DNA from: Microlunatus parietis
GTDB lineage: Bacteria; Actinomycetota; Actinomycetes; Propionibacteriales; Propionibacteriaceae
Length of the DNA: 64,000 bases
Direction of reading: 5' to 3'
NCBI RefSeq assembly: GCF_013407955.1
Contig: NZ_JACCBU010000001.1
Location: 5,704,001-5,768,000, forward strand
Shown: one piece after another, positions 4,079 to 29,477 of the stretch
Position numbering within the stretch: the stretch's first letter is position 1
How the letters are laid out: each line of letters opens with the position of its first letter
The notes under the pieces: model-generated
What the model saw: only the letters and a program-made list of their open reading frames with translations
What the model was told of the DNA's origin: nothing
Database searches by the model: none
Translations under genes and position numbers: made by a program

Positions 4079-4117
4079 TAGCCTGTCGCCATGACTACGG
4101 CGGGGGAGACACCATGA
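4079..4117 (+). promoter_or_regulatory. Leaderless promoter and 8-codon micro-ORF before rlmN
   Basis: TAGCCT (4079-4084) sits 6 nt before an ATG at 4091, the spacing expected for a leaderless actinobacterial transcript. That ATG opens an 8-codon ORF (MTTAGETP) whose TGA (4115-4117) overlaps the rlmN ATG (4114). A GGGGGAGA sequence inside the micro-ORF could serve as Shine-Dalgarno sequence for rlmN. RlmN synthesis would therefore be coupled to translation of the micro-ORF. Confidence 0.55.
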
Positions 4118-5235
4118 GCGGGGGCACGCTGCCGCTCGTCTTCTCCGCGCCCCGACGCGGAAAGCCGCCGCGGCACTGGGCCGACCTGACTGCGGCCGAG
4201 CGGCGGGAGGCGGTCGAGGCCCTCGGCCACCGCGCGTTCCGGGCCCGCCAGCTTTCCGCCCACTACTTCGCCGGCCTGCGTACTGACCCGGCCGAATGGA
4301 CCGACCTGCCGGCCGAGGTCCGCGACGAACTCGCCACGACCTTCATGCCGCCGCTGCTGAACCGGGTCCACGAACTGACCTGCGACGACGGTGCGACGGT
4401 GAAGTCGCTGTGGCGGCTGCACGACGGCGCGACCGTCGAGAGCGTCCTGATGCGCTATCCGGACCGGGCCACCATGTGCGTGTCCAGCCAGGCCGGCTGC
4501 GGCATGGCCTGCCCGTTCTGCGCGACCGGGCAGGGCGGGCTGCAACGCAACATGAGCACCGCCGAGATCGTCGAACAGGTCGTCGACGGCGCCCGGCGGC
4601 TGGGCCGCGGCGAGATCGCCGGCGGACCCGGCCGGATCTCCAACGTCGTGTTCATGGGCATGGGCGAGCCGATGGCCAACTACAAGGCCGTCATCGGCGC
4701 GGTCCGGCAGCTCGTCACCCCGGCGCCGGACGGTCTCGGCATGAGCGCCCGCGGCATCACCGTCTCCACCGTCGGCCTGGTGCCGCGGATCCAGCAGCTG
4801 GCCACCGAGGGCCTGCCGGTCACTCTGGCCATCTCACTGCACGCCCCGGACGACGAGCTGCGCGACGAGCTGGTCCCGGTGAACACCCGCTGGAACGTCG
4901 ACGAGGTCGTCGACGCTGCCTGGGAGTACGCCAAGATCACCAAGCGCCGGGTCTCGATCGAGTACATCTTGATCAAGGACATCAATGATCAAGCTCACCG
5001 CGCCGATCTGCTGGCCAAGGTGCTGCGGCGCGGCAACTGGGGCTGGGTCCACGTCAACCTGATCCCGCTCAACCCAACTAAAGGTGCGACCAAGTGGCAG
5101 CCTTCCGACTTGGCCGACCAGGAGGAGTTCGTTCGGCGCCTGGAGCACCGAGGCGTTCCGGTCACCGTACGTGACACACGTGGCCGGGAGATCGATGCTG
5201 CCTGCGGACAACTCGCGGCCAGCGAGCGCGCATAG
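4114..5235 (+). CDS. rlmN: Dual-specificity RNA methyltransferase RlmN, C-terminus supplied by the mobile element
   Basis: A radical SAM enzyme that methylates C2 of A2503 in 23S rRNA and A37 of some tRNAs. The [4Fe-4S] motif is C129-x3-C133-x2-C136 (CGMACPFC). The essential methyl-carrying cysteine is C364 in the C-terminal IDAACGQL. The length of 373 residues is normal. Up to about N320 the codons look chromosomal; after the NPT at residues 320-322 the sequence changes character. A second, closely similar rlmN 3' end lies 24 kb downstream at 29313-29477. The gene is therefore a chimera: the element's left end restores the frame and provides the catalytic cysteine, so integration should not abolish activity. 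Confidence 0.95.
5071..5085. other. attL junction (approximate)
   Basis: This is the region where chromosomal rlmN passes into element-supplied rlmN sequence. Codon by codon, the left side reads L-N-P-T-K-G and the right junction reads L-N-P-T-P-G. Only short identities are shared, including CC and AC in the P-T codons and GGT in the Gly codon. This fits serine-recombinase crossover, which needs only a 2-bp core. The exact dinucleotide cannot be fixed without the empty site. Confidence 0.6.
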
Positions 5236-5243
5236 CCGGGACC

Positions 5244-5654
5244 TCAGCTCGCGCGAGCTTCACCAACTGACAAGGGCGGGTCGCCGTTGCCCTTCCAGGC
5301 CCACCGCAACGTCGCGGCGGCTCCCTCGATGATCAGCCGGCGCGGGTCGTCGGTTCCCTGCACTCGAATCGACGCCCTCTCTGCTGCCTGAAACTCGCGT
5401 TCGAGCAACTCTTCGTGCGCGCGGCGCCGGGTCCGCGTTATCGGTGCGAAAGCGGGACTGGGACGGCCGTTGAAGACGACGGTTGCACAGGCGATCCACC
5501 TGCACATCAGGGTCACGCCGGTCGCGTACTCGTCAGTCTTGCCAAGTTGCTCGGCCGCCCGCCAGACCTCCGCAAAGGTGACGCGCGGCACCCGGAGATT
5601 CCCGGTAGGGATCCCTTCGATGTCCTCCGCGCGAATGTCCATGCCTTCAACCAT
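5244..5654 (-). CDS. Hypothetical protein at the left end of the element
   Basis: A protein of 136 residues, or 132 if the second Met (MDIRAEDIEG) is the start; neither start has a convincing ribosome binding site. It has a compact N-terminal segment with an aromatic, Arg-rich helix, then a Cys/Met-rich hydrophobic patch (VTLMCRWIACATVVF), a basic central helix and a Gly/Asn-rich end. No known domain is recognised. It is convergent with rlmN, 8 bp away, and divergent from the next unknown gene, so it is the first gene inside the element. Readthrough from rlmN would run antisense into it. Its function is unknown. Confidence 0.6.
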   Translation of the reverse strand: MVEGMDIRAEDIEGIPTGNLRVPRVTFAEVWRAAEQLGKTDEYATGVTLMCRWIACATVVFNGRPSPAFAPITRTRRRAHEELLEREFQAAERASIRVQGTDDPRRLIIEGAAATLRWAWKGNGDPPLSVGEARAS

Positions 5655-5783
5655 CGCACGGACGTATGACAGTTCCTAGCCCCAATTGGCGCAGGAACCA
5701 TTTCTCCGCGGTCAGTCGAGTGTCGTACGCGGGTGCAACACTTGTTGATCCGAGCCAATTTACCGAGCGGGAGGACTTGGCAG

Positions 5784-6473
5784 ATGAGCAATCGGCGCAA
5801 GCGGAAGCAGTCGCAGTTTCGGCGGATGGTGGGTACTCCGACGATGAACCTGGGCAGAGATGCCACCGGCCGGCCGGTGCTGCCCGACGGCGTGGGGACG
5901 GATCAGGCTGAGATCGAGCGCATCGCGAACGACACCCACACGAACGCTCGGGCGATCTTTTCGACGCACCCGGCGATCGGGCTGGGTAGCCCTGTCACGC
6001 TGGCGAGGAACATTCAGGCTGTCGGTCCGACGTTCGTGCCCGATCCCACCGCCGAGGCGCTGCCGGTCGTGCTCTTCGAGCCGGAGAAGGCGCTGATGAT
6101 GTCGGATCCGCTGAACGGCGAGACGAGTGAGGTCCAGGTCGCCGGCATTTGCCGGCAGGGCTTCACGCGCTGGCCGCCCGTGGCGACGATGCTCAAGGGC
6201 GCACCAGGTTGGTCGGTGCGACGGGTCGGCAAGACGCTTGAGCTGCGGGACGAGCAGGACGGGTTATGGGCGGTCGCGGAACTGACTCCGGATCCTGAGT
6301 GGATCTCAGCGGCCGTCAGCCAGCGCTACGTGACGGTCGTCTACGGGCCCAAGATCGGAGTTCGGACGCCACCTTCGTCAACCGGCTACAGCGAATCTGA
6401 CCGGAAAGCGGAACTCGCCGAGTCGCGGAAATTCGGCATGGTCGCGACTGCGATCGTCGAGTGGCGCGGCTGA
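5784..6473 (+). CDS. Hypothetical cargo protein (229 aa)
   Basis: ATG 5784 is preferred because GGGAGG (5769-5774) lies 9 nt upstream. The product opens with a very basic stretch (MSNRRKRKQSQFRR), then a region with many Thr/Ala/Pro residues and a beta-rich C-terminal half (SVRRVGKTLELRDEQDGLW). No signal peptide, membrane helix or catalytic motif is evident. It is the first of a rightward series of unknown genes ending at the NYN gene; a 189-bp gap separates it from the next, so it may have its own transcript. GC content looks lower than in the chromosomal arms. Not recognised. Confidence 0.65.
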   Translation: MSNRRKRKQSQFRRMVGTPTMNLGRDATGRPVLPDGVGTDQAEIERIANDTHTNARAIFSTHPAIGLGSPVTLARNIQAVGPTFVPDPTAEALPVVLFEPEKALMMSDPLNGETSEVQVAGICRQGFTRWPPVATMLKGAPGWSVRRVGKTLELRDEQDGLWAVAELTPDPEWISAAVSQRYVTVVYGPKIGVRTPPSSTGYSESDRKAELAESRKFGMVATAIVEWRG

Positions 6474-6662
6474 GCCGGGTCTTGAAATGCGCGAAGGCCG
6501 GGTCCCGTCGTCCGGCGGGGGTTCCGACCTCACGGCTTCCCAACTGTCAGCGTCAGCGGGCTTACGCGCAAGCCTACACAGCCGGGCGACTCGACTCACC
6601 CTGGAGACGCGCCGCGGGTGCGTCCGGGCGATCGACTGGGTTCCGATGCGAGACTCGCTGTC

Positions 6663-7310
6663 ATGACTGGTATCGATGATGCGCAAGCGCGACATGGTAA
6701 CTATCGTGCCGACTGCGACCGGCTGCGGGCGATCTGGGAGAAGACGATCGCGGGGCGCGGCGGGCCGTTGCCTGGGGCGATTCTTGATCCGATCCGGACT
6801 CCCACCGGATGGTGCGGTCAGGTCCAGTTGAGACCAGGTCAGCATTCCACGCGGAGTGTTATTGACGCCTCGTCATCAATCGCAGCGGCGTTCGGTCTGC
6901 CGCGAGGCTCGATCGTCGTCGAGGGTGGTGTTGATGAGACGGCGGATACCGCGTTCATCTGGGCCTACGATGCGCCTTCGCAAGCTGACTATCACGAGCA
7001 CCGACCAATGCGAATTCCGGACCACTCGATCGGCAAGACGAAAGACATCCATAGAAGTCATGTGCGGGGTTGGGCCTCCGACTACCGCGGCGCCTGGCAG
7101 GCCCTACTCGCCAACCGTGGACAGGGCAAGATCATTGACGACGTGGTGCACCGGCTCCTACGACTGCGGGCGGGGTTGATCGATCTGCTGCCCGACAGTG
7201 CGCCGGATGCGATGCGGGACCTGTTGGTCGAACAGGGCGTCACGGCGGAATCACTTCCACGCGATCTTGTCGAGTTGTGCGGTCTTTCCTACGACAGGGA
7301 TCGGCGATGA
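6663..7310 (+). CDS. Hypothetical cargo protein (215 aa)
   Basis: Not recognised with confidence. The first half (IRTPTGWCGQVQLRPGQ, then AAAFGLPRGSIVVEGG) has the rhythm of the N-terminal region of FtsK/TraB-type mobile-element translocases, where a beta-sheet is followed by an A-x-A-hG-L-P motif, but no ATPase domain follows. The second half is helical and Asp/Leu/Arg-rich. ATG 6663 is the first good start; no strong ribosome binding site is visible. Its stop overlaps the next start (ATGA), so it is co-translated with the 153-residue protein downstream. It could be a degenerate translocase fragment or an independent cargo protein. Confidence 0.6.
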   Translation: MTGIDDAQARHGNYRADCDRLRAIWEKTIAGRGGPLPGAILDPIRTPTGWCGQVQLRPGQHSTRSVIDASSSIAAAFGLPRGSIVVEGGVDETADTAFIWAYDAPSQADYHEHRPMRIPDHSIGKTKDIHRSHVRGWASDYRGAWQALLANRGQGKIIDDVVHRLLRLRAGLIDLLPDSAPDAMRDLLVEQGVTAESLPRDLVELCGLSYDRDRR

Positions 7311-7768
7311 AGGAGACCAGGCAGCAGAGGCGAGCGCGGGAGCGCGCCGAAGCCAAAGCAGCACGGTCGTCGCCGACGAACTTGGCGCTGCCATCCACGT
7401 TGGGCGTTGCCGCCTCCGCCGATCCTACGAGTGCACCCGGAACCAGTAGCCACAGCTCCTCGGCGACAAAGGTCATGGAGGTTCGGCTTTACGGCACCTA
7501 CTTCAGCGGCGACGACCTGGATGAGTACGAGGATCCCTACGTGGCATGGTCGGCCGAGTGGGCCTGGAGGGACAACAGCGTCGGCACTGAGGACGGTAGC
7601 AACGACATTGCAGAACTTGTTTCGATCGTGCTGTCAAGCATAAGGAAGATGGCAAGGGGTCGAACCGTTGAACTTGACTGGGAAGTCAACGAAATCGACG
7701 GGCTCCGGCCCGGTGCCGTAGACAAGGAGTTGGCTGCCGCCGGGGTCACCTTGCCGACTCACGTCTAG
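7307..7768 (+). CDS. Hypothetical cargo protein (153 aa)
   Basis: Starts in an ATGA overlap with the preceding gene. The N-terminus is strongly basic (KETRQQRRARERAEAKAAR) and could bind nucleic acid. A Ser/Thr/Ala-rich linker of about 35 residues follows, then a folded acidic C-terminal domain with Trp-rich (AWSAEWAWRDN) and Asp/Glu-rich segments. No signal peptide is present. Coupling to its neighbour and close spacing to the NYN gene suggest a three-gene unit. Function unknown. Confidence 0.62.
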   Translation: MKETRQQRRARERAEAKAARSSPTNLALPSTLGVAASADPTSAPGTSSHSSSATKVMEVRLYGTYFSGDDLDEYEDPYVAWSAEWAWRDNSVGTEDGSNDIAELVSIVLSSIRKMARGRTVELDWEVNEIDGLRPGAVDKELAAAGVTLPTHV

Positions 7769-7822
7769 CTTGTGCCGTGTCGCAGACCGAGGTGTGCCCA
7801 GGCCTCTCCGAGAATCGAGGTT

Positions 7823-8512
7823 GTGACCACGTCTGAGCCGGAACCGAAGCCGCGTCCTCGGACGATCGTCTACGTTGACGGGTTCAACCTGTACTACCGG
7901 CTCCGGAAGACTCCGTTCAAATGGCTGGATCTCGGCGCCATGTTCCGCGGCTTGCTGCACGACCACGACATCGTCGGCATCCGCTACTGCACAGCTCGGG
8001 TGAAGGAACTGCCGGACAACCCTGGGGTGGCGGCGCGGCAGGAGGCCTACCTAGCTGCACTGCGGTCCGTGCCGGGACTGTCGATTCACTACGGAAAGTT
8101 CCGGGCAGATAAGAAGTACGCCCGGCTGGTCAACCCGCCGCCACCGCCGGACCCCCCGACCGTGCTGGTGCACAAGTTTGAGGAGAAGGGCAGTGACGTC
8201 AACCTGGCGACACTGATGCTGGTCGACGCCTTCGACCAGGCCTGCGACGCGTCGGTCCTGGTGAGCAACGACTCCGATTTAGTCCTGCCGTTGTCGCTTC
8301 TCGGGAGTCGGTTCGGGCAGACGATCGGTCTCGTGAACCCATGGGATGCACCGCCGAACCGGGAGTTGCTCGCCACCCGTCCGACGATCATTCGTCGGAT
8401 CCGAGACGGTTTGCTCGCTGCGTCACAGTTCGATAGCCCGCTGATCGTCGGCAACCGCACACTGCACCGGCCGGCAGCGTGGCCAGCGCCGCCGAGGCCT
8501 GTGGGTACCTAA
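7823..8512 (+). CDS. NYN-domain (PIN-like) ribonuclease
   Basis: A NYN/LabA-type nuclease fold. The first acidic motif is V-Y-V-D19-G-F-N22; the later motifs KGSDVNL and SNDSDL supply the other metal-binding Asp residues, so the site looks intact. Family members are metal-dependent RNases. The start is uncertain: GTG 7823 places Met 18 residues before the catalytic Asp, while an earlier GTG at 7772 would add 17 residues. The C-terminal 30 residues are Pro/Arg-rich. It is the last gene of the left cargo block and is followed by a strong terminator. An RNase on a mobile element could act in defence, toxin-antitoxin or exclusion functions; this is inference only. Confidence 0.82.
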   Translation: MTTSEPEPKPRPRTIVYVDGFNLYYRLRKTPFKWLDLGAMFRGLLHDHDIVGIRYCTARVKELPDNPGVAARQEAYLAALRSVPGLSIHYGKFRADKKYARLVNPPPPPDPPTVLVHKFEEKGSDVNLATLMLVDAFDQACDASVLVSNDSDLVLPLSLLGSRFGQTIGLVNPWDAPPNRELLATRPTIIRRIRDGLLAASQFDSPLIVGNRTLHRPAAWPAPPRPVGT

Positions 8513-8519
8513 GAAAGCA

Positions 8520-8543
8520 GAAACCCCGCCGTAGCGGGGTTTC
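8520..8543. terminator. Bidirectional terminator hairpin
   Basis: GAAACCCCGC-CGTA-GCGGGGTTTC forms a perfect 10-bp stem with a 4-nt loop. It lies between the rightward NYN gene and the leftward cupin gene and can terminate both. Confidence 0.88.
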
Positions 8544-8604
8544 GCGGCCAACTGCTCAAGTCAGCTGGTGGGTTATGGCCCCAGAGTAGCAGCTACGTCG
8601 TAAT

Positions 8605-8952
8605 TCAGACGACAGACGGCCAGCGGACCGTCACGACAACAGCATCTGTCACGGCCTGCCACGAGTGGTCTGTGCCGGCGCCCCACAGCACGTAGTCCCC
8701 TTGCCGCTCAAGCGTCACGCTGTCGCCGGGGAGGTCGAGTCGAAACGTGCCGCTGACAAGGAGCAGCAGCGTGGTGCGCTTCTCGCCGGTGGTCCACTCT
8801 GGGCGCGACTGGCCGGCCGGATGCACACCCCACTTAACTTCCAGGTCACCAGTGGCGCGCATGGAGCCTGCGGGCTCCATGAAGTGGCCGAGCAACCAGC
8901 CGCGGGTTGCGGTCTCGTCGTTGGCATTGCCGGTGTGCCAGTCAGCGGTCAT
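8605..8952 (-). CDS. Cupin-like protein coupled to the helix-turn-helix/Nudix regulator
   Basis: A 115-residue single-domain protein with the beta-rich pattern of small cupins (LLLVSGTFRLDLPGDSV, then GDYVLWGAGTDHSW). Close relatives in actinomycetes are often mislabelled signal peptidase I, but no Ser/Lys catalytic dyad or membrane anchor is present. The start at 8952 overlaps the stop of the upstream regulator gene (ATGA), so it is made from the same mRNA. Only a few candidate metal ligands are visible, so it may bind a small ligand without metal. A role as partner or sensor for the regulator is inferred from coupling alone. Confidence 0.75.
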   Translation of the reverse strand: MTADWHTGNANDETATRGWLLGHFMEPAGSMRATGDLEVKWGVHPAGQSRPEWTTGEKRTTLLLLVSGTFRLDLPGDSVTLERQGDYVLWGAGTDHSWQAVTDAVVVTVRWPSVV

Positions 8953-10517
8953 CAGATCTCCTCTGAGATGTTGGGAATTGCCGTGCGGTCGCCTCCTACC
9001 TCCGACAGGCGGAGGAGCCCGCGGAGTAGAGCGAACAAGCCTTCGTTGCTCCATCGATCGTCCTGGATCAGGTGGAGCAGCGCAGCCGTGTCACGCGCCG
9101 AGTACTGCTGCAGGTGATTGGCTTCCCAGTTGGCCAGCACGTCTCCACCGAACGAGCCCCACCAGTGTTCATCATGGATTGCGGTCAGTGCAGCGAATTC
9201 GTAGTTTCCAGTCAGTAGATTCACGCCGAAGCCCGTGCACTCCATCTGCCAGATTGCCGGGTCTTGATGCTCCATCAGCCACCGCATCGGTTCCGACAGC
9301 CGGCTCGGGTGGATCGGATCCGCCACGCCCTGACCGCCGAGCTCGAGGTCATCCCTGCCTAGGAGTTCCTCCTCAAGCTCGCGTTGGAGAGTCATAGACA
9401 GGTGCGCGTCGTCGGCGTAGTTAACGAGGGGCTGATGAAAGGCCTTCGGGATGACGGCCAGTTGCCCATTGGCATTGACGACCTGACCGGAGCGTTCCTG
9501 GATGAGAAGCACATAGTCTGCCGGCCAACCGGTCCGGCTCGCGGGGCGGGCCGCAGCGAACAATGAGAGCACTCCGCCGGCGGGCCTGCGGCTTCCGAGA
9601 TCTAGAGCGCTCAGAGGGGTGGGCAGGTACCGAGACCTCAGCGGCAAGCTGGACCAGTCTGCGCGGTCACTAACCAATCCGTCGACGAGCTCGGTCGCGA
9701 TCAGATCGGTGGTGAGTGCGTACTCGCGGAACTGACCAAGTTGAAACGTGCCTGAGATGCCAGCGGTGCGGTCGATCGTCACGCCAGTGAGCGCGTAAAG
9801 CTGGGCATCGAAGAATCGTGATCCAGTTGCCACGATCTCGGCGACCCGGTTGCTTGCAGCAGCATGCGCGGCATCGTCCAGATGGACCGGTCTGATGGGC
9901 GAACGATCAAGGTCGAATTGATCTTGGCCAGAACCCAATGGAACCGGGCCGGCGACCCAATCAGGCTGCACCAACATCGTCGTACGGATCGGGCCCGACG
10001 CCGTGCTCGCCTGGTACAAGCTCGCGTTCTCCGCTGCCGTCGGATACAGGCCGGCTACTGCATCCGCTAGTGCCGACCTTCCGACTTTGCTGCGCTGTCG
10101 CTTGATCCGACGGGAGGTGCGTGGGTCAAGCTCTGCGAGACGTGATGCAACCAGCGCCTCGGTTGTTCCATCAGGTAGCTCCGCCGCCTCATCCAGCCAG
10201 TCGATCGCGTTGATCAGATCCTGGTCAACGTGATCGAGCACCCCCGGCTCGGACGGAAGTGCCGTCGGATCAGGGGGAAGTAGTTGGGCGAAGCGCGCTC
10301 GCTCATCCTCATCCGCGTCGCGATGAGCGGTGTCAAGAATCTGCTGCATCACCGGCACGGGAACTACTGCGGGTTTGGCATGCCAATTCGCAACCGTGCG
10401 AACGGCGATCCCTAGCCGTGCCGCGAACGCTTCGTTGCTGAGCCGGAATGCGCGCTGTAGCGCGGTAGCTTCCTGACCTGTCCAGGTGTCGATGACCCGC
10501 ATGTTCAGCTCCCGCAT
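8952..10517 (-). CDS. Helix-turn-helix regulator with Nudix-like C-terminal domain
   Basis: A protein of 521 residues. Residues 15-50 form an XRE-like helix-turn-helix (LSNEAFAARLGIAVRTVANW). A long middle region has no assigned domain. Near residue 380 a degenerate Nudix box appears: RELEEELL matches the R-E-U-x-E-E core, but the preceding Glu and the following Gly are missing, so hydrolysis is doubtful. The Pif immunity factor of the actinomycete element pSAM2 also carries a Nudix motif, which makes an entry-exclusion role worth considering. ATG 10502 (MRVIDTW) also has a good ribosome binding site and would shorten the protein by 5 residues. The gene is coupled to the cupin gene. Confidence 0.78.
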   Translation of the reverse strand: MRELNMRVIDTWTGQEATALQRAFRLSNEAFAARLGIAVRTVANWHAKPAVVPVPVMQQILDTAHRDADEDERARFAQLLPPDPTALPSEPGVLDHVDQDLINAIDWLDEAAELPDGTTEALVASRLAELDPRTSRRIKRQRSKVGRSALADAVAGLYPTAAENASLYQASTASGPIRTTMLVQPDWVAGPVPLGSGQDQFDLDRSPIRPVHLDDAAHAAASNRVAEIVATGSRFFDAQLYALTGVTIDRTAGISGTFQLGQFREYALTTDLIATELVDGLVSDRADWSSLPLRSRYLPTPLSALDLGSRRPAGGVLSLFAAARPASRTGWPADYVLLIQERSGQVVNANGQLAVIPKAFHQPLVNYADDAHLSMTLQRELEEELLGRDDLELGGQGVADPIHPSRLSEPMRWLMEHQDPAIWQMECTGFGVNLLTGNYEFAALTAIHDEHWWGSFGGDVLANWEANHLQQYSARDTAALLHLIQDDRWSNEGLFALLRGLLRLSEVGGDRTAIPNISEEI

Positions 10518-10528
10518 TTCATCCCCGC

Positions 10529-10543
10529 TGCACGTTCAGTGCA
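10529..10543. promoter_or_regulatory. Candidate operator upstream of the helix-turn-helix/Nudix gene
   Basis: TGCAC-GTTCA-GTGCA, a 5-bp inverted repeat with a 5-bp spacer, lies 12 bp upstream of the regulator start codon. It partly overlaps the palindrome AGTGCACT. The position suits autoregulation. Confidence 0.4.
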
Positions 10544-10641
10544 CTACCGATGCATGGTTCGCCTCGCCCCACCAGTATTCACTGGTTTCCATGGAACCAA
10601 GGGGATCGGCAGGACACAGGGCTCGCGGCCAGCTCGTGTGG

Positions 10642-10980
10642 TCAACGGAGTTCATCGAGTTTCAACTCCAAGGCCTCGACGCGGGCGGCAAGCAGTGCAA
10701 TCTCCTTGCGGAGCGAGGAGATGTCATTTTCAGCAGCATCGTTCGTCGCCGCGGGAATCACGTACACGCCCCTGGTTCCATGCGATCGAACGAGGCCTTC
10801 TCGTTGGAGTTCATCGACGGCCTTCTGTGCCGTCGGGATCGCGACGCCGTAGGTCCGAGCAAGTGCCCGGCCGGCCGGGAGCTTCGCGCCTGGTGGGAGT
10901 TCGCCGGAGCTGATCGCAGCTCGCAGTGCGTCGGCGATCTGCAGGTACGGCGGCTGGGGGGCCCCTGCGTCGATGGTCAT
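10642..10980 (-). CDS. GntR-family transcriptional repressor
   Basis: A short GntR protein of 112 residues (119 if the in-frame GTG at 11001 is used). The winged helix-turn-helix occupies residues 10-75 (YLQIADALRAAISSGELPPG, then QKAVDELQREGLVRS). The C-terminus is a coiled coil (LRKEIALLAARVEALELKL) instead of a ligand-binding domain, suggesting dimerisation without an effector pocket. It is divergent from the excisionase-like gene, and repeated TTGACCTATGTCAA-type sites fill the gap. KorSA, the repressor of the actinomycete element pSAM2, is also GntR-family. The inferred role is to keep transfer genes silent. Confidence 0.88.
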   Translation of the reverse strand: MTIDAGAPQPPYLQIADALRAAISSGELPPGAKLPAGRALARTYGVAIPTAQKAVDELQREGLVRSHGTRGVYVIPAATNDAAENDISSLRKEIALLAARVEALELKLDELR

Positions 10981-11008
10981 AGGAAGACCGTAGCCGCTCA
11001 CTGACGAG

Positions 11009-11081
11009 TTGACCTATGTCAACGAGCCGGAACTGTTGTAAAGACTGATGACCATGGTTAAACTATGTCAAGAATAGTCAA
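11009..11081. promoter_or_regulatory. Divergent control region with repeated GntR-type operators
   Basis: TTGACCTATGTCAA (11009-11022, arms TTGAC/GTCAA) is repeated as TTAAACTATGTCAA (11058-11071; 12 of 14 positions agree), with a further half-site TAGTCAA at 11075-11081. TAAACT at 11059-11064 looks like a rightward -10 box inside the second copy. The region separates the GntR repressor gene from the excisionase-like gene, so one protein could control both directions. Confidence 0.68.
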
Positions 11082-11100
11082 CTGGAAGGAAGTGGAAGCT

Positions 11101-11418
11101 ATGCCAACACCTGTGACGGGTGAGGGCTCGGTTCAGCCGAGCGGCATCGATCTGACTGAGCGGCTCGCTGAGCAGGCCGTTGCGGTCTCGGCCGACGAGA
11201 GCCCGACCAAGCAGTTGCTCACGATCAAGGAGTTCGCCGCGTTCGCGGGCATTTCGGCGATGACCGTCTACCGCCTCATTCACTCGGGAGACTTTCCGGC
11301 TGTCCGGGTGGGGCGGCGCCTGTTCGTGCCTGCCCGACTCATGGAGGACCTGGGCAATGCAGCGCTTGCCCAGGGCCGCGTCGTGACGGCAACCGACTGG
11401 CAGGGGGCCAGGGAATGA
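11101..11418 (+). CDS. Excisionase-like helix-turn-helix protein (MerR/HTH_17 type)
   Basis: A 105-residue protein. Residues 39-90 carry the compact winged helix-turn-helix shared by excisionases and BldC-like proteins (LLTIKEFAAFAGI, then MTVYRLIHSGDFPAVRVGRR). The N-terminal 35 residues look disordered. ATG 11101 is chosen because GGAAGGAAG lies 8 nt upstream; ATG 11065 falls inside the operator region. It lies 16 kb from the recombinase, so it may act as a recombination directionality factor or as an activator of the mobilisation operon, whose first gene overlaps its stop (ATGA at 11415). Confidence 0.8.
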   Translation: MPTPVTGEGSVQPSGIDLTERLAEQAVAVSADESPTKQLLTIKEFAAFAGISAMTVYRLIHSGDFPAVRVGRRLFVPARLMEDLGNAALAQGRVVTATDWQGARE

Positions 11419-11440
11419 GCACACCACGGAGAGATCGAGA

Positions 11441-11504: not shown

Positions 11505-11516
11505 GAGGTATCAATC

Positions 11517-22362: not shown

Positions 22363-22390
22363 CTAACCAACACCACGGAAGGAAATGATC

Positions 22391-25300
22391 ATGACCGACA
22401 CCACCAACGACCCGACCGATCCGCTCGAGATCGCGCGGAGGATCGTCGCCCGTGAAGAACAGCACCGCCAGAGCGTGTATGAGGCCGACCTGGCCATGGC
22501 TGACCTGAGCGAGGTCGTTTCGGAGGAGGAGTACGAGCAGGCCTACGACGCCTACCGGCGGCGGCTGGATCAGGCTGAACGACGGCTCCAGGAGCAGGCC
22601 CAGAAGGATCTCGCCACCAGCGTCACGCCGGACCAGCCAGCGCCCGCAGCCGATCGAGGGAACCGCGACCAGTCGGGTTACCGGCTGGCTACCGATGCTG
22701 AGGCCATGGCCGGGATCCTGGCCGCTGTCGAGGCCGGTGAAATGAGCGTGTATGTATCGGAGAAGGAGACGCGGGCTGAGCTTGCGGCGGCGTTGGCCGA
22801 TGTGCACGAGGCGATGGCCCGGGCGGCGGCGGTCGAGAAGGCTGGCCGGGTCGGGGCCGGCTACGAAGCGGTGACCTCGCCGTTTGAATGGCGGCTCTGG
22901 CGAACGATGACCCACGCCATCGCCGCCGTCGACCGGATGATCGAGTTGGACCCAGCCCTGGATCATCCGATCCTGGCCAACGTCAAGGTCGGCGACGACC
23001 GGACCGCCGAGGTCGCAGAGCTGGACGACACCGAGCGGGACGCGCTGCTCGTGCCGGCTCACGTTGCGGCCGGGAAGGCTGCCGAGCGGGCGCAGGTGTT
23101 GTTGGACCGGCTGACCGCCGACTACGGCCACACCGAGCAGGAAGAGGCGGTGTGGGCGGAGGTGGACGAGCGGCTGGACCGGATCGCCGGGACGCTCCGG
23201 GTCAACTCCGGCGAGCTGGCGTGGCCCGCTTTCCGCGCCATGGTCCGGACCGACTGGGAGCACGAGGCCGCGGAGCGCGCCGAGCTGGCCGCCACCTACG
23301 ACCAGCTCTCTGCCGCTGGGCGGGCCGAGGCGTTGAGCCTCGGTATCGCCGGCCACGACGCCGCCGCCAACGCCGAGCGGCGTGATCTGGCCCAGCGGCT
23401 GCAGGTCGAGCACAGCCAACGCAACAAGGCCTATTTCACCGGCCAGACCGCCGAACGACCGATCAGCCCACCGTTCGGGCTCCGACTGATCGTCAAGCAC
23501 GAAGGCGACCTCGCCGCCGTAATCGCCGACGACGCGATCAACGGTGACCTGATCACCGCCCTCACCTTGGCCTCGCCCGGCGAGGAGCGTGACCGCGGCT
23601 GGTCGCCGCGACCGGACGACCTCGACCGGCTCGCCGAGGAACGCGGCCGGCTCGCCGACCAGCTCGGCCTTGAATCCCAGGACACGGCAGAGGCTGGCGA
23701 GGAGTACTCCGCCGCGGACCGGCTTGAAGCCCACGCCCTGGAGCCCGTCAGCCAGGAGGGGAGGGATCGGTTGGTGGCAACCCCGTACGGCCCCGGCCGG
23801 ATCGAGGAGGCGTTCTACGGCTACGGCCTGGACGCGGACGCGTCGACGCCGGTTGAGGGCTACCGAGTTGTGGTCGCTGCGAGCGGCGCAGAGAAGTTGA
23901 TCAAGGCCGAGCATGTCTCGACAGACCCTGCCGAGATCGCGAAGTCCGGCCTTCAGGCCCGGTACTCGGACGGGTCACCGGTCCGCGTCACCGCTGACGG
24001 GTTGATCTTGGCCGAGGACGAGGTGTGCAACGACGATTGGGATCGGGACTACTGGTACCGGATCCCGCAACGCAACACCGACGCCCGGCAAACCCTGGCG
24101 GCGTCCCTGTTCGAGGCCGACACCGCCCTCGGCCGGGCCGAGGAGATCGAAGACCAACTCCGGGAAGCCGCCGGGTATGACGAAGTGAACTCGGAGTTCG
24201 CCCTGGACATCGACTTCGCCCGCGGTGACGTGCAGCGAGCCATCGCTGAACAACGCCTGATCGAAGGAACCCCTGGAGCGACGGCCCAGGCCTCCGCTGA
24301 AGCCGACGCCGCCGGCGACCAGCGGCCGGCCATCGACACGGCCGCGGCTGCCGAGCGGGCTGTTACCGCTCCGGCTGTGGACTCCGAGTTGGGTGAGGGT
24401 GGGCACAGTCTCGGCGCGCACCGTGACGCCGATACTGCGCTGAGCCGGGCCCGGTCGGCATTCGACCTCCTGCGGGGCACCGATGACGCCTACGCCGAAT
24501 GGGACCGCACCGACGCCACACCGACCAACGTTGACCTGCTGGGCGAGCTAATCGGGTCGGCGCAGGCGATGACGCGGTCCAACCTGGACGATCTCCAGAC
24601 GCCCGGTATCGACGACCGGATCAGGGCCGACTGGAAAGACCAGGACGAAGCGACCCTGGGCCTCGCACCGGAATATGCCGACGATGCCCGCTTCGACGAC
24701 GACTCGTGGTGGAGTGAGCCCGACGCTGAGGCTGCGGCCGAGATTGACCGGCTGCTTGCCGTCGTTAGTCGTGGCGAGGGCGCCCAGCATCGGCGGGAAG
24801 CTATGCCGCCAGACGCTCCAAACCATGACCCGTGGCGTGATCTTCGCACCGCACCCGCCGCGAACGCCGGTGACTCCACCGCAACCCCGACCGCCGAACA
24901 TCACGACGGCGGCCAGGATGTCGACGACGACGCGGTGGACACCGGCGCGGTTGACGCCGTGCATGTGCCGGCCACGATCTCGGACCAGGCGCAGGTGATC
25001 TTGTCGTCGGACGAGATCCGCCTGGTTCGTGGGCTTCTGTCCGGCTACCGGGCCCGCGAGTTGGCCCAGGTGGAGAACGACGAGGACGGCGAGTTCGACT
25101 ACTACGACCGTGAGGTGTTCTACGAGAATGCCCACCGGGCCGAGCTCATCGAGAACCGGCTCGCCGCGGCCGACCTGGAGCTGCGCGAGGCGCGCGCTGA
25201 GGCGATCGCTGAATCGCACAAGTCCGGGCCGAGCAAGGACCTCATTCGACGCTTGGAACAGATAGCTGCTGCCGCTCGATCCGAAGGCGATGTGGTGCGG

Positions 25301-25708
25301 GCGGAAGGCACGGAGGCGGTGCTCTCCGATCTGCATGCGGGGTACCCGTCCGAGGTTGCCTATGAGCGGTCACGCGAACGGGATCTCGCAGCTCCAGGAG
25401 GAGACCGGGATCCGAGGCCGGCGGGCAACTCGGCTGATCATCCCGCCCAGGACGTAGCGCCGGACTTTGAGCGGCAGCCGTTGGACGAGCCACCGGACGA
25501 AACCGCTGTGGCGGTACACCGGGCCGGGCAGGCCGTGCACGATCTGCAGCAGCGCCAGACCGAGGACCACCGCAGGACCGCCGCGGAGCGGGCCCGACAC
25601 GACGAGGACCTCGTCCGGTGGCATCAACAAGATCAACAACAGCACGCCGCCATCGAGCGCACGGACAGCCAGCCGGTGCTGGACCGCGCTGATTACGACG
25701 ACCGTTAG
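22391..25708 (+). CDS. Large acidic coiled-coil protein sharing a C-terminal module with the relaxase
   Basis: A protein of 1105 residues with no recognised domain. It is highly charged (Asp/Glu/Arg/Ala) and mostly helical, with long coiled-coil segments. Similar blocks beginning D-T-A-L-x-R-A occur twice (near 575 and 680). A short beta-rich insert (VATPYGPGRIEEAFYGYG) sits near 460. The C-terminal segment A-V-H-D-L-Q-Q-R-Q-T ending in DLVRWH aligns with the relaxase tail (I-V-E-I-R-H-R-Q-T ending in ELARWH). ATG 22391 is chosen over 22385 for its spacing from GGAAGG. Following the relaxase by 28 bp, it may bind the same partner, for example the coupling protein, or be co-transferred. This is inference. 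Confidence 0.78.
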   Translation: MTDTTNDPTDPLEIARRIVAREEQHRQSVYEADLAMADLSEVVSEEEYEQAYDAYRRRLDQAERRLQEQAQKDLATSVTPDQPAPAADRGNRDQSGYRLATDAEAMAGILAAVEAGEMSVYVSEKETRAELAAALADVHEAMARAAAVEKAGRVGAGYEAVTSPFEWRLWRTMTHAIAAVDRMIELDPALDHPILANVKVGDDRTAEVAELDDTERDALLVPAHVAAGKAAERAQVLLDRLTADYGHTEQEEAVWAEVDERLDRIAGTLRVNSGELAWPAFRAMVRTDWEHEAAERAELAATYDQLSAAGRAEALSLGIAGHDAAANAERRDLAQRLQVEHSQRNKAYFTGQTAERPISPPFGLRLIVKHEGDLAAVIADDAINGDLITALTLASPGEERDRGWSPRPDDLDRLAEERGRLADQLGLESQDTAEAGEEYSAADRLEAHALEPVSQEGRDRLVATPYGPGRIEEAFYGYGLDADASTPVEGYRVVVAASGAEKLIKAEHVSTDPAEIAKSGLQARYSDGSPVRVTADGLILAEDEVCNDDWDRDYWYRIPQRNTDARQTLAASLFEADTALGRAEEIEDQLREAAGYDEVNSEFALDIDFARGDVQRAIAEQRLIEGTPGATAQASAEADAAGDQRPAIDTAAAAERAVTAPAVDSELGEGGHSLGAHRDADTALSRARSAFDLLRGTDDAYAEWDRTDATPTNVDLLGELIGSAQAMTRSNLDDLQTPGIDDRIRADWKDQDEATLGLAPEYADDARFDDDSWWSEPDAEAAAEIDRLLAVVSRGEGAQHRREAMPPDAPNHDPWRDLRTAPAANAGDSTATPTAEHHDGGQDVDDDAVDTGAVDAVHVPATISDQAQVILSSDEIRLVRGLLSGYRARELAQVENDEDGEFDYYDREVFYENAHRAELIENRLAAADLELREARAEAIAESHKSGPSKDLIRRLEQIAAAARSEGDVVRAEGTEAVLSDLHAGYPSEVAYERSRERDLAAPGGDRDPRPAGNSADHPAQDVAPDFERQPLDEPPDETAVAVHRAGQAVHDLQQRQTEDHRRTAAERARHDEDLVRWHQQDQQQHAAIERTDSQPVLDRADYDDR

Positions 25709-25808
25709 TCGAGCCGGGCGGCTGCCGGGCCCGGCCTGGTGCCCACCGCCCTGCGGGCGGGAAAGAGGGTGCCTGGCCGGGTCCGGTGGCCTGGTGCCAG
25801 CCCGGCCC

Positions 25809-25924
25809 CTCCAACCTCAATCAGGGTCCGTGAGGTTCTCGCCTGACGGACGTCGGCGCTCGCAAGCTCGCTTATTTCCTAGTCCGCCAAACGAGAACCT
25901 CACGGACCCTGATTGACCTTGGAG
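25809..25924. repeat. Very large inverted repeat, candidate oriT or terminator
   Basis: Arms 25809-25841 and 25892-25924 pair at 31 of 33 positions, with an uninterrupted 25-bp core (25817-25841 with 25892-25916) and a 50-nt loop. The loop holds a direct repeat GCTCGC-AA-GCTCGC and a weak inner stem (ACGGAC/GTCCGC). It is the main feature of the 311-bp gene-free stretch 25709-26019, which also holds the palindrome GCCGGGCCCGGC and a second hairpin. A position just after the relaxase block suits an origin of transfer. A strong terminator or a MITE-like insertion are alternatives; no target duplication is evident. Confidence 0.72.
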
Positions 25925-25954
25925 CCTCTACCGGGCCGGCATGCGACAGCAGTC

Positions 25955-25983
25955 GGCAGGCCCCCAAAAAACAGGGGGCTGCC
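25955..25983. terminator. GC-rich hairpin before the small-gene cluster
   Basis: GGCAG-G-CCCCC pairs with GGGGG-CTGCC across an A-rich 8-nt loop, with one bulged G. It lies 36 bp before the first small gene and could be a terminator for upstream transcription or a leader hairpin. Confidence 0.5.
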
Positions 25984-26019
25984 GCCACCCAACGGCCACC
26001 AGCAGGGGAGTTGATGATC

Positions 26020-26190
26020 ATGGCGAACGGGTCAAACCCTCCGCGCCGGATTCCGGCCGGAGCCTGCACCTGGTGCGGCCACGCACCCCACGCTGGCCCC
26101 TGCGGCGACCAGATCCGCACCCACCGCGAACACGCCATCCACCAACCCTGTCCCTGCAACCACCACACCAACCGGAGGAACCCGAAATGA
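26020..26190 (+). CDS. Small Cys-rich, probably zinc-binding protein (56 aa)
   Basis: ATG 26020 has GGGGAG about 9 nt upstream; the stop overlaps the next start (ATGA). The peptide contains CTWCGH near residue 16, another Cys near 28 and CPC near 45, interspersed with many His residues, a typical small zinc-knuckle composition. The ends are basic and Pro-rich. Single-domain proteins of this kind are common on actinobacterial elements and can bind nucleic acid, but no function is established here. Confidence 0.6.
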   Translation: MANGSNPPRRIPAGACTWCGHAPHAGPCGDQIRTHREHAIHQPCPCNHHTNRRNPK

Positions 26191-26468
26191 TCACCACCGA
26201 GACCAAGAAGGCGAGCCGGATCTCCGACGTCAACGGCCTGGCGATGTACGTCCTCAGTGACGACTGCAGCTGGGGCGACCGTGCTGGGTTCGACGGCATC
26301 GGCATCTGGCACGCCGCCGACCGGATTGCCGTCTACCCGGTCTACTACTGGACGCCGGCCGCTGACGGGAACTTCCCCAACGGCATGGTCAAGTCCGAGC
26401 CCATGGCGCACTTCCACACCGACGCCACGCACATCGAGATTCTGGCCGCGTTCGGCTACTCCCTCTGA
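26187..26468 (+). CDS. Hypothetical small protein (93 aa)
   Basis: Starts in an ATGA overlap with the zinc-knuckle gene; GGAGG lies 10 nt upstream. It is a beta-rich soluble protein with many aromatic residues (RIAVYPVYYWTPAADG) and no membrane segment. It belongs to a cluster of five small genes each with a good ribosome binding site. No family recognised. Confidence 0.62.
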   Translation: MITTETKKASRISDVNGLAMYVLSDDCSWGDRAGFDGIGIWHAADRIAVYPVYYWTPAADGNFPNGMVKSEPMAHFHTDATHIEILAAFGYSL

Positions 26469-26543
26469 CCCGTCCCAGTGGCGCCCGGACCCCGCACCGG
26501 GCGCCGCCGAGGCAGACCAGACCAAGATCACAAAGGAGCAGAG

Positions 26544-26756
26544 ATGACCGAGACCTATGCCGACCTCAAGCCCGGCGATCGCATCCTCTTTCCGGTTCAC
26601 AACATCCGCGTCTGGGGACCCGAAGAGCGGACCGTGAAGGAGGTCTTCGGCAACTTCGGATCCCCGAACCTGGTCATCTACTGGGAGGAGGGAGGGCCCC
26701 CAGGAGTCGTTGCCCGCGCAGCCAAGATCACCCGCGCCCGACCGACCCGACCTTGA
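26544..26756 (+). CDS. Hypothetical small protein (70 aa), SH3-like
   Basis: AAAGGAG lies 8 nt before ATG 26544. The pattern L-K-P-G-D-R-I-L-F, then R-T-V-K-E-V and N-L-V-I-Y-W, suggests a small beta-barrel of about 60 residues, like SH3-type or KOW-like folds. The C-terminus is basic. It is part of the small-gene cluster; no function is known. Confidence 0.58.
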   Translation: MTETYADLKPGDRILFPVHNIRVWGPEERTVKEVFGNFGSPNLVIYWEEGGPPGVVARAAKITRARPTRP

Positions 26757-26772
26757 TCACGAAGGAGTAGAC

Positions 26773-27003
26773 ATGTACGCCGCGCACAACACCGAAACCC
26801 ACTACATCACCGTTTACGCCGATGGCGGCCAGATCGAGGGCGCGTTCACCGATGCCGATTACGTCGGTTCGACCGTGACCCTCTCCGAGCACATCGCCCG
26901 CTACGGGTACGAGGTCGGAGAGTGGTTCAAGATCAACTCGAAGACGTATGCCGCTGACGCCGCCCCGACCAAGGTCGGCGAGTCCGACACGTCAGGAGAA
27001 TGA
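26773..27003 (+). CDS. Hypothetical small protein (76 aa)
   Basis: GAAGGAG lies 7 nt before ATG 26773. The product has an alternating hydrophobic pattern suggesting a small mixed fold (HYITVYADGGQIEGAF) and a Gly/Ser-rich acidic tail. Its stop overlaps an ATG at 27000, but the next gene more likely begins at 27006. No family recognised. Confidence 0.58.
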   Translation: MYAAHNTETHYITVYADGGQIEGAFTDADYVGSTVTLSEHIARYGYEVGEWFKINSKTYAADAAPTKVGESDTSGE

Positions 27004-27005
27004 TC

Positions 27006-27602
27006 ATGACCAATTATCGCGAACGCATTGGTGAGCGTGACCGCGAGGGGCGCTACCCGGGCGCCCCGGCGTGGAACGGTGATCTTGAAACCCTGAGTCC
27101 GGCCGGGCTGGAGGAGCATGACCGCGGCCTGCAGGGCTACATCGCGAACGTGACCGTCAGGTCAGAGGGCTGGAACGACCGCCGGCCTTGGCGGGTCTCG
27201 ACGCCGGCTGAGCGCCGCGCCGCCGGCCTGGACCGCTACGTGGCCCGGCTGGTCGAGGTCCGCACCGAACGGGCCCGCCGTGAACGGGAGATCGGCTTCA
27301 ACGAGTACCTTCGGCTTCAGGCCAGTCCGGCGGGTCACAAGCCGTGGCCGAAACCCGAGCAGCGCCAAGACGTCGCGCCGGCCCCTCAGTACGTCTGGCC
27401 GAGCCGTGCAGACGACATCTTCAAACCACGCCGGTTTCGCGGCCGCTGGGCCGTGTTCGACACCTACTACCGCCGCCACATCCGCCGCGATCTCTCCGAA
27501 GCCGAAGCCCGGCAGCTAGCCGCCGAGTACAGCACCAACGCACGCCACGAACTGCAGGAGTCCAACGACCGCGAACAACAACAACAGGAGCACCGGAGAT
27601 GA
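27006..27602 (+). CDS. Hypothetical charged protein (198 aa)
   Basis: ATG 27006 is chosen because GGAG lies 7 nt upstream, while for ATG 27000 it is too close. The protein is rich in Arg, Glu and Trp, with helical segments (VARLVEVRTERARREREIG) and a C-terminal Gln/Glu-rich tail. Short stretches (PWRVSTPAERRAAGLDRY) look conserved, but no domain is recognised. It is the largest gene of the cluster before the recombinase. Its stop overlaps an ATG at 27599 that reads through the second stem-loop copy. Confidence 0.6.
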   Translation: MTNYRERIGERDREGRYPGAPAWNGDLETLSPAGLEEHDRGLQGYIANVTVRSEGWNDRRPWRVSTPAERRAAGLDRYVARLVEVRTERARREREIGFNEYLRLQASPAGHKPWPKPEQRQDVAPAPQYVWPSRADDIFKPRRFRGRWAVFDTYYRRHIRRDLSEAEARQLAAEYSTNARHELQESNDREQQQQEHRR

Positions 27603-27624
27603 GGAAACGACAAGCCGTGCAAGG

Positions 27625-27688
27625 CCAGTCCCGCCCAGGCGCCAACCAGACAGGGACCGGCACTCCGACAACCCAGCTAGAAGCAGCG
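27625..27688 (+). repeat. Stem-loop element, copy 2 of a duplicated segment
   Basis: Positions 27630-27688 match 11446-11504 at 54 of 59. The stem CCAGTCCCG (27625-27633) with AGGGACCGG (27652-27660) keeps 7 of 9 pairs, including one compensatory C-G to T-A change; the 18-nt loop is unchanged. It precedes ATG 27695 by 6 nt and, like copy 1, follows a gene whose stop overlaps an in-frame ATG (27599). Confidence 0.66.
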
Positions 27689-27694
27689 ACCGTA

Positions 27695-27880
27695 ATGACG
27701 AATCACCGCGGAGAGCCAACGAGCGACGACCAGCAGAAGGAAGCATGGATACAGAAGCAGTTGGCAGCAGCGCCGGAGCCCTCCGCGGCCCTCATCGCGT
27801 CGCTCAACGCGCTTCGCGCCACACCGGACGGAGTCGGTCGGGGTCGAACCGTGGCCGGCCGGTTGCCTGAGAGCGCGTAA
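27695..27880 (+). CDS. Small protein next to the recombinase (61 aa)
   Basis: A peptide with W-I-Q-K-Q-L-A-A-A-P-E-P-S then a short helix. This resembles the small 'W-x-x-x-Q-L-A-x-A-P-x-h' proteins encoded beside integrases in many actinobacterial phages and elements, though the usual later part is altered. An ATG at 27599, overlapping the previous stop, would add 32 residues encoded by the repeat. The last 77 bp overlap the convergent recombinase gene, so one of the two ends may be mis-set or the overlap is real. Function unknown. Confidence 0.5.
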   Translation: MTNHRGEPTSDDQQKEAWIQKQLAAAPEPSAALIASLNALRATPDGVGRGRTVAGRLPESA

Positions 27881-29279
27881 CGACGATTGAGGAGAACACT
27901 CGATCGATATATCCGCGCTGCTTGTGCGTCGGCAGGTTGTCCCATTCCTCCCGGCTGAGCTGTTCAGGAATCGGGCCTGCTGTCTCGGCGAGCCACCGCC
28001 GCCGGGCTTTTTTCAGGGTCGCTATTTCGTCCTCAAGCGTTTGGACGACAGGAAATACTCGCGCCTCAGAGAGTTCGCCGCGCGAGAATGCTGCCAGTAG
28101 CGCTTTGGCCCTTTCCTCTTTGGCGGTCAGCTCCTCTTCCTGTGGCCAGGTTTGAGGAGCTGGCTGCGTTTCGAGGCTTATTCGCGCCATGTAGCGCAGG
28201 AGCAGGCCAACTACTGTTTCTTCGGTCTGCAGTCGGTCAATAACCATGTAGTGTTTGTTCTCTGTACCAAGAGAACTGGTCATGAGCCCACATCGATAGG
28301 CGGCGTTGTACCGCTTCGTTCGTGTTCCATCCGGCCGGAGATTACCTCCTCGGCCGGAGATCGCATGCATCCGTGTCCCGCACACGCCGCACCGAAGCAC
28401 TCCACTCAGGAGCGCCTTTTCGTTACGATCTCTCACATGTATGCCTAGCTCTTTGTTGCGATCGAGACGCGCGCACAGCCGTTCGAACGTGTCAAGCTCT
28501 ATCAATGGGTCCCATTGTCCCTTGACCGGATCGCCAGTCAGCGAGTGTAGATACAGTTCACCGTCCTGGCCGACGTAGCCGGCGAGCCTCGGGTTGTGAA
28601 AGTAGGTCAGAGCGGTCTGATAGGTCCAGGGATTCCCTCGGGATGTTCGTAATCCAGCATCGTTGAACCCTCGACACACTTCGTGCAGCGACGCGCCTTC
28701 GATGAGTATCGAAACCGCCTCTCGTGCATGCTGTGCCTCGATTGGGTCGAGGTGTATCCGATCCTTCTGCCAACCAAATGGGCGAAATGCAGAATGCGGC
28801 TCGCCTTTGTCGCGCTTCGCCTTTCTTGCTCGGGCGATCCGTTCGCCAGTGCGCTCAGCCTCACCGGCATCGGCGGCCGCCTTGAATCTAGCGACCATAC
28901 GCCCGTCCGCGGTCGAGAGGTCGTCCTCACCTGAGACCATGGTGATGATCCGGATGGGCCGATCGATGCGGAGTCGATGGTTGTACAGCTCAATGAAGCC
29001 CTCCAGCTCCATAGGTCGGCGGGTGAGTCGCGAGTTCGAGTAGGCAATGATGGCGTCGAACTCGCCTTGCCAGGCGCGTTCCATCATCCGTTCGAAGTCG
29101 GGCCGACTCTTCCGACTCAAGGTCGAGGCACCGATATCGTTGTCTTCGAAGGAGTGTGCGAGCGTGAACCCCTCGCGCTTGGCGAGGGTCGAGTTGTCTT
29201 CCCGCTGCCGGTCTACGCCGACCTCAAGGCCCTCGGGGTCTTCGCTGATACGGCAGTAGCCAACCGCAATCCTGGTCAC
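27804..29279 (-). CDS. Large serine recombinase (element integrase)
   Basis: Catalyses site-specific integration and excision. The N-terminal resolvase domain has the catalytic serine S12 in Y-x-R-I-S, followed by the Arg-rich active-site region ([12 protein letters not shown]). The recombinase domain (AFRPFGW onward) and a zinc ribbon (CGVCGTRM, then YRCG) follow; a fourth zinc ligand is not obvious. A coiled coil ([20 protein letters not shown]) lies near residue 390. Length 491, usual for the class. The GTG start at 29279 is about 40 bp from the right junction. Codon use is visibly less GC-rich than in the flanking chromosome, as expected for acquired DNA. Confidence 0.95.
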
Positions 29280-29312
29280 GTCACCGAGGGTACATGTTTT
29301 TTAGGTCTGTGC

Positions 29313-29477
29313 CCCTTGAATCCCACCCCTGGTTCGAAATGGACCGCATCGCGGCGCGAGGACGAGGAAGAGTTCGTGCGCCGGCTGGAAAGGCGGGGCG
29401 TGCCCGTGACCGTACGGGACACGCGCGGGCGCGAGATCGACGGTGCCTGCGGCCAGCTCGCGGCTGCGAAGAGCTAG
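29313..29477 (+). pseudogene. rlmN: Displaced native 3' end of rlmN
   Basis: This fragment encodes [10 protein letters not shown] and the rest of the RlmN C-terminus through [15 protein letters not shown], closely parallel to the last 55 residues of the intact gene at 4114. It has no start signal of its own and is cut off from the rlmN promoter by the element. It keeps the catalytic-cysteine motif GACGQL, so excision would restore a functional native gene. Its GC-rich codons match the chromosome rather than the element. Confidence 0.9.
29319..29333. other. attR junction (approximate)
   Basis: Element sequence gives way to the native rlmN 3' end, reading N-P-T-P-G-S-K-W in frame. Aligned to the left junction, the codons for N-P-T and Gly match at the protein level, with short nucleotide identities only. 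Excision here and at attL would rebuild an uninterrupted rlmN. Confidence 0.6.

Follow-up and report, generated by a model that had tools for sequence, protein, structure and literature searches.

A 24-kb integrated element inside rlmN of Microlunatus parietis carries an in-frame replacement for the gene's 3' end

The rlmN locus and the integrated element

We examined a 64,000-nucleotide stretch of the Microlunatus parietis genome (contig NZ_JACCBU010000001.1, positions 5,704,001 to 5,768,000 of the forward strand; hereafter the window, numbered from its first letter) in which a 24-kb element lies inside rlmN, a 23S rRNA methyltransferase gene. The gene at 4114-5235 encodes an uninterrupted protein of 373 amino acids that is a fusion, residues 1-317 being native and residues 318-373, including Cys364 of the ACGQL motif, being derived from the element. 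The native end of the gene lies orphaned at the opposite boundary of the element and, read from 29313, runs for 54 residues before its stop codon. The features that make up this arrangement are the following:

4114..5064, plus strand: native rlmN 5' part, residues 1-317 (63-91% protein identity to 16 congeners across the gene)
5064..5066, plus strand: putative CCC crossover core of attL, from the comparison of attL and attR with the empty site in the congener G019
5067..5235, plus strand: rlmN 3' end carried by the element, in frame (residues 318-373, among them the ACGQL cysteine Cys364, plus stop)
5064..29311, no strand: integrated element, 24,248 bp core to core, from the attL/attR comparison and the G019 empty site
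27804..29279, minus strand: large serine recombinase, 491 aa (Pfam PF00239, PF07508 and PF13408, each over its cut-off)
29280..29311, plus strand: P arm, between the core and the recombinase start, assigned by position
29312..29477, plus strand: attR, consisting of the core and the native rlmN 3' end displaced and orphaned there (54 residues plus stop; identity to G019 rlmN 91.5% over 29312-29464)

When the complete genome was searched with the 373-aa RlmN, only 2 places were returned, the gene and the orphan, and the latter (a 62-residue match, window 29289-29471) has an E value of 2.6e-20 and is therefore not a chance match. With the empty site of G019 as a guide to attB, the crossover would fall at a CCC that straddles the Ile317 and Pro318 codons, taking one base from the former and two from the latter (attL 5064-5066; attR 29312-29314). 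The start codon of the recombinase gene is 32 bp from the core triplet at 29312, and the P' arm falls in the first codons of the imported rlmN end (5067-5235). ARAGORN found no tRNA genes in the window. An open frame of 166 aa (28977-29477), which runs antisense to the recombinase start and reaches into the orphaned native end, is probably a chance product of the high G+C content.

Which end is native

The genus sample comprised 20 genomes including that of the window (G000), 17 of which gave an rlmN match, that is, 16 of the 19 others. In all 16 of these congeners rlmN has the PTPGS end, the type also seen in the orphan, and the PTKGATKW end found at 5235, looked for as the natural end of a relative with an empty site, occurs in none (0 of 16). 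The closest congener, G019, matches the window by blastn at 4074-5219 with its rlmN and at 29636-30765 with the sequence downstream of it, and its rlmN end is the one that resembles the orphan. By this comparison G019 carries the empty site, and the end now fused to rlmN in the window is the imported one. Base composition differs as well, with G+C at third codon positions (GC3) of 0.70 in the imported end, 0.93 in the native 5' part and 0.82 in the native end; the lowest 56-codon window of the rlmN 5' part is at least 0.875. No donor of the imported end was identified, the best match listed being only 79% identical and coming from another family of the order.

Two side observations concern the same region. 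The roughly 33 bp to the right of the core (29312-29344) are identical to G019 rlmN and use AT-rich codons unlike those of the other congeners listed, and outside this stretch the rlmN ends of the window and G019 are only about 83% alike. The interval downstream of rlmN has probably been rebuilt more than once, because in three other congeners (L006, L008 and L017) the sequence that follows rlmN matches the window at 34.3-34.8 kb.

A first-pass annotation of this DNA, made from its letters alone, had proposed that the element sits inside rlmN and replaces its 3' end together with the catalytic cysteine, and both the empty site of G019 and the end types of the congeners bear this out. The uninterrupted gene that it suggested seeking in relatives is that of G019, which matches both flanks and ends as the 29312-29477 type. 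Some particulars need amending: the element does have its own copy of the rlmN end, 56 residues long rather than 50, and a serine recombinase gene does lie beside the right junction, at 32 bp rather than about 40. The C-termini differ as described (ASERA against AAAKS), and the change is wider than that, extending to a rewritten stretch directly past the junction. The description of the two ends as near-identical is incorrect at the DNA level, where the 55 aligned codons comprise 16 identical ones, 25 with synonymous differences and 14 with a changed residue, and one further codon is inserted.

Is the imported end a functional sequence?

By the NG86 method, the imported and native ends differ with a dN of 0.22 and a dS of 3.1, the latter saturated. 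The fused RlmN passes TIGR00048 (317.4 against a cut-off of 290), and its ACGQL aligns with the ACGQL of the solved RlmN chain 6fz6; going by work on E. coli RlmN, we take the cysteine of this motif to be the catalytic residue. Against a profile built from the 16 congener proteins, the fused RlmN scores 733 bits, compared with 757 for a virtual native-ended protein and 639 for one truncated at the junction. This profile has 31 invariant columns past the junction, all of which are kept by the native end (31/31), 27 by the imported end of the window and 23 by that of a second element described below, in the genome G066. The four residues lost in the window (323, 325, 329 and 335 in native numbering) fall near the junction, in the region of the att arm. 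Because the imported end is in frame, its differences are mostly synonymous and 27 of 31 invariant residues are kept, the fused RlmN is probably active. Both imported ends, in the window and in G066, have a lysine after NPT or NPI near the junction, and it would appear that the att sequence dictates this residue.

A second element at the same codon and a possible third trace

Other elements with a recombinase gene beside an rlmN 3' fragment, which had also been proposed as a search target, were sought, and one was found, in another genus of the same family (G066). There, a different imported end is joined to rlmN at the same proline codon, the native end is orphaned, the distance from junction to junction is 5,937 bp, and attL and attR have the 11-bp stretch CCGCTCAACCC in common. 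The recombinase (L037 7748-9471, minus strand; 545 residues as translated, with the start codon unsettled) is 36% identical to that of the window over 426 aa. Its gene is co-oriented with the fused rlmN and lies directly behind it; a DNA methylase and an insertion sequence (IS)-type transposase are found further along. The polarity differs from that in the window, and in the integrated state the host rlmN promoter may drive expression of this recombinase gene. In a 34-codon block of the two G066 ends, 8 codons are identical, 16 differ synonymously and 10 non-synonymously, which suggests a weaker signal of constraint than in the window.

The genome with the empty site, G019, also holds an orphan rlmN 3' end, about 2 kb downstream of its intact rlmN and beyond a glyoxalase-type gene:

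L022 6727-6891, minus strand (= L076 11727-11891): orphan rlmN end, flank to about 6920

When inverted, the P' arm of the window element matches the left flank of this orphan, GGTGCACCTTTAGTCTGGTTGTGC, in an alignment that 0 of 5000 shuffles equalled; 2 of 42,646 window positions scanned (every third, both strands) reached the same score, a count that may include the site itself. The two rlmN ends of G019 are identical at 155 of 165 nt and differ by eight synonymous codons and one non-synonymous codon, a pattern consistent with both having been coding during their divergence. No recombinase match lies near the orphan in the 19.9 kb examined. It may be the trace of an earlier element, one that lies beyond the glyoxalase-type gene and not at the rlmN junction.

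A proposed exchange of coding 3' ends and its alternatives

We propose that the large serine recombinase recombines an attP on the element with an attB at the CCC across the Ile317 and Pro318 codons of rlmN. Because attP continues on the element into an in-frame rlmN remainder of 56 residues with the ACGQL cysteine, integration would exchange coding 3' ends and leave the gene unbroken. The native end would be set aside at the far boundary, next to the recombinase gene, and excision would reattach it. The P' arm would be encoded in the codons directly past the junction, where the imported end deviates most from a normal RlmN, and transfer of the element would rely on a helper system. We put the probability of such a gene-preserving swap at about 0.88.

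Several results weigh against this proposal. Neither a circular form nor attP was observed, and no close relative of the recombinase is at hand for testing site choice (198 genomes of the family, searched at E<=1e-60, returned its own genome only). In a comparison of ten pairs of arms by shuffling, with 2000 shuffles each, the two arms of the window align no better than shuffles do (1730/2000). The inverted symmetry of attP is weak, its best dyad being equalled in 47 of 2000 shuffles of the window site and, at G066, in 976 of 2000, and a 13-row recombinase tree pairs the window and G066 enzymes at a support of 50/41 only. The fused end also alters four residues that are invariant in the 16 congeners, and it is possible that the fused RlmN is less active than the native one.

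These altered residues, 4 of 31 in the window genome and 8 of 31 in G066, could instead mean that the insertion is site-specific as proposed and that the imported end is decaying or poorly active, in which case the element in effect damages rlmN. Gene disruption is indeed what the available passages of two papers state for integrative and conjugative elements (ICEs) and integrative mobilizable elements (IMEs) with serine recombinases (PMC4701971, PMC5704250). However, the frame is intact in both elements, the cysteine and the RDTRG..I..ACGQL block are retained, synonymous change is in excess in the window and the profile score is 94 bits above that of the truncated protein, and we consider damage to the gene unlikely. 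The imported end is of an ordinary actinomycete type, as its best listed match suggests, and a foreign rlmN 3' end could have been acquired by homologous recombination before the element arrived separately. However, homologous recombination does not explain why the native end lies across the element, beside the recombinase gene, and this history requires two events at one codon, which makes it very improbable. If rlmN had instead been partly duplicated, and 24 kb had then been inserted or rearranged independently, the adjacency of the recombinase would be a coincidence. Duplications of rlmN do exist, with a 98-residue copy in G174 and a pair of copies separated by about 1 kb in G683. In the window, however, it is the unusual copy that is joined to the gene and the native one that stands apart, the gene in G066 is broken at the same codon with a different recombinase, and the empty site of G019 contradicts this account, which we find scarcely credible.

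Attachment arms and recombinase kinship

In the same comparison of arms, 0 of 2000 shuffles did as well as the alignment of the window P' arm with the G019 P arm, and 1 of 2000 did as well as that of the window P' arm with the G066 P arm. The window and G066 P' arms also gave 1 of 2000, in part because both encode LNP, the P and P' arms of G066 gave 39 of 2000, and the remaining six pairs ranged from 79 to 1730 of 2000. The window P arm (29280-29311) had no significant likeness to the other arms tested. The likeness of the G066 P arm to the G019 P arm was not taken to indicate kinship, since 284 of the 24,942 stretches compared at that locus scored as well. A common origin of the elements at the rlmN site is possible.

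The G066 recombinase fell below the 1e-60 limit of the family search and was found through its rlmN end. Searches of 396 genomes of the phylum at 1e-50 gave 3 recombinase matches beyond the window's own, 33-34% identical, and 391 genomes of the order, searched with a two-sequence profile at 1e-75, gave G066, G677 and G1093 beyond its own. Among phage records 28 have a recombinase match (best identity among the matches listed, 40.4%), as do 2 plasmid records (at most 28.8%); a scan of genome_contigs and a recombinase scan of viral_contigs gave two distant loci each, at 23-29%, and a scan of viral_contigs with the rlmN end gave seven loci at 31%. No rlmN 3' fragment was found in the 6-19 kb around the recombinases of G010, G220, G242, G528, G677 (two), G1093, three Streptomyces phages and Nonomuraea. 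One of the G677 recombinases is about 9 kb from an intact rlmN, which we took as coincidence.

Relation to known systems

Silent integration by an element that carries a replacement gene end is known from e14 in icd and from elements at tRNA 3' ends, which use tyrosine integrases and longer identity, whereas the window element has a serine recombinase and a putative 3-bp core. Staphylococcal cassette chromosome (SCC) elements at rlmH/orfX do use serine recombinases, and the 3' end of this 23S rRNA methyltransferase gene stays coding; they differ from the window element in having Ccr recombinases and a site at the extreme 3' end of rlmH. Gene-end replacement is known in kind, and what sets the present case apart is that serine recombinases would bring it about within the coding sequence, in a catalytic region of a core enzyme.

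The use of rlmN as an insertion site is not new, because an actinomycete integrative and conjugative element (AICE) in rlmN, AICE03 of Streptomyces strain RLB3-6, has already been published, with 11-nt direct repeats (PMC9513070). Like the window element it is a conjugative-type element of an actinomycete in rlmN, and G066 too has an 11-bp common stretch. The AICEs of that paper were detected through integrase, Rep and TraB, whereas the window element encodes a relaxase together with a TraG-type coupling protein, and the passages of the paper that mention rlmN are silent on a replaced 3' end and on the class of the integrase. As excerpted, the literature on serine integrases describes an ICE insertion in rumA that alters the C-terminus and shifts the frame, with all insertions of 29 such ICEs disrupting genes (PMC4701971), and site-specific IMEs with serine recombinases that disrupt dispensable genes (PMC5704250). 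The streptococcal rumA ICEs and IMEs, which have a single serine integrase, resemble the window element in their serine recombinase, in an internal site in a 23S rRNA methyltransferase gene and in the altered C-terminus, but there the frame is reported to change and the gene to be disrupted, whereas here a homologous imported end keeps both frame and motif. Thousands of large serine recombinases, including distant ones with a common target gene, have been catalogued (PMC10083194), and the word rlmN is absent from the main text of that paper as excerpted. In the accessible parts of the literature on rlmN and on serine-integrase insertion, we found no description of an imported gene end joined in frame at a serine-recombinase site internal to a gene.

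A gene-preserving 3'-end exchange by a serine recombinase would therefore depart from the statements of gene disruption in the excerpts of PMC4701971 and PMC5704250, and it would do so in two distantly related elements that occupy the same rlmN codon, each with a homologous in-frame end bearing the cysteine motif. If this exchange operates as proposed, a conserved gene could serve a serine recombinase as a safe target, on condition that the att site fits the protein sequence, and a mobile element could drive the exchange of a core enzyme's catalytic end. Annotation will show an intact rlmN in such genomes although the native end sits kilobases away. A bolder and doubtful extension would be a recombinase lineage specialised on one rlmN codon, with its attP packaged in a coding copy of the catalytic 3' end, that by repeated integration and excision forms an end-exchange system spreading alternative RlmN C-termini between genera. 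If this were true, the state of integration would set which catalytic RlmN end, and perhaps which level of A2503 methylation, a cell has.

Frequency of the arrangement

In the family survey, rlmN was matched in 183 of 195 genomes and more than once in 26. Besides G000, 21 of the 25 genomes with multiple matches were re-listed, the fragmented G157, G162, G172 and G173 being left out, and orphan 3' ends that begin at the junction codon were seen in G000, G019 and G066. The other re-listed doubles were set aside as apparent split contigs, alignments broken by gaps, a distant paralogue, the duplicate in G174 and a piece at a contig edge. This last piece, in G077, is 46 residues long. The G174 copy (L038 4043-4333) is a 98-residue duplicate of the rlmN 3' end, 1.1 kb downstream of the intact gene, with no match to the window recombinase in 8 kb, and is a different kind of duplication.

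The class survey matched rlmN in 376 of 393 genomes, with two matches in 4 (G000, G606, G683 and G718). The second match in G606 and G718 is a frame of 376 or 394 aa elsewhere, a paralogue and not an orphan, and G683 has two long-frame rlmN copies about 1 kb apart, again not an orphan; beyond G000, no orphan rlmN end was seen in this sample of 393. The end-exchange arrangement is rare in these samples. Ends resembling rlmN occur in 21 phage records, and among three that were inspected one is a whole host gene and two are unannotated.

Gene content and class of the element

Further genes of the element are as follows:

7772..8512, plus strand: NYN-domain protein, cargo, PADLOC candidate HEC-09 (Pfam PF01936, 1.5e-6; PADLOC PDLC04163, 2.1e-33)
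10642..11001, minus strand: GntR-type regulator (Pfam PF00392, 2.2e-17)
11065..11418, plus strand: small HTH_17 protein, a candidate excisionase-like protein (Pfam PF12728, 1e-10; AlpA 5.9e-4, under the cut-off)
11948..14026, plus strand: VirD4/TraG-type coupling protein (Pfam PF12696, 1.2e-21; PF02534, 1.7e-12)
16068..17687, plus strand: DUF2637 protein (Pfam PF10935, 3.9e-9)
17668..22362, plus strand: MobF (TrwC-type) relaxase with a helicase domain (Pfam PF08751, 8.1e-49; NCBIfam NF041492, 159.2 bits against a cut-off of 100)

The recombinase unites Resolvase, Recombinase and zinc-ribbon domains, as large serine recombinases do, and the putative short core common to attL and attR, together with an attP beside the recombinase gene, is what would be expected of that class. 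The element has its own integrase and a relaxase, a combination expected of IMEs, and is a putative IME. VirB4 was not found in the subset of its open reading frames scanned with Pfam; TraB and Rep gave no match in the frames scanned, and the coupling protein is of the TraG/VirD4 type. Membership in SCC fails on both recombinase and site, the former reaching 34.7 bits with CcrB, where the cut-off is 900, and the latter being rlmN, not rlmH. The best plasmid relative of the relaxase is 37.7% identical over 81%. In the same transfer region, a protein of 1107 aa (22385-25708) matched nothing in Pfam, NCBIfam or PADLOC within the limits applied. The NYN-domain protein at 7772-8512 is possibly a defence cargo of the element.

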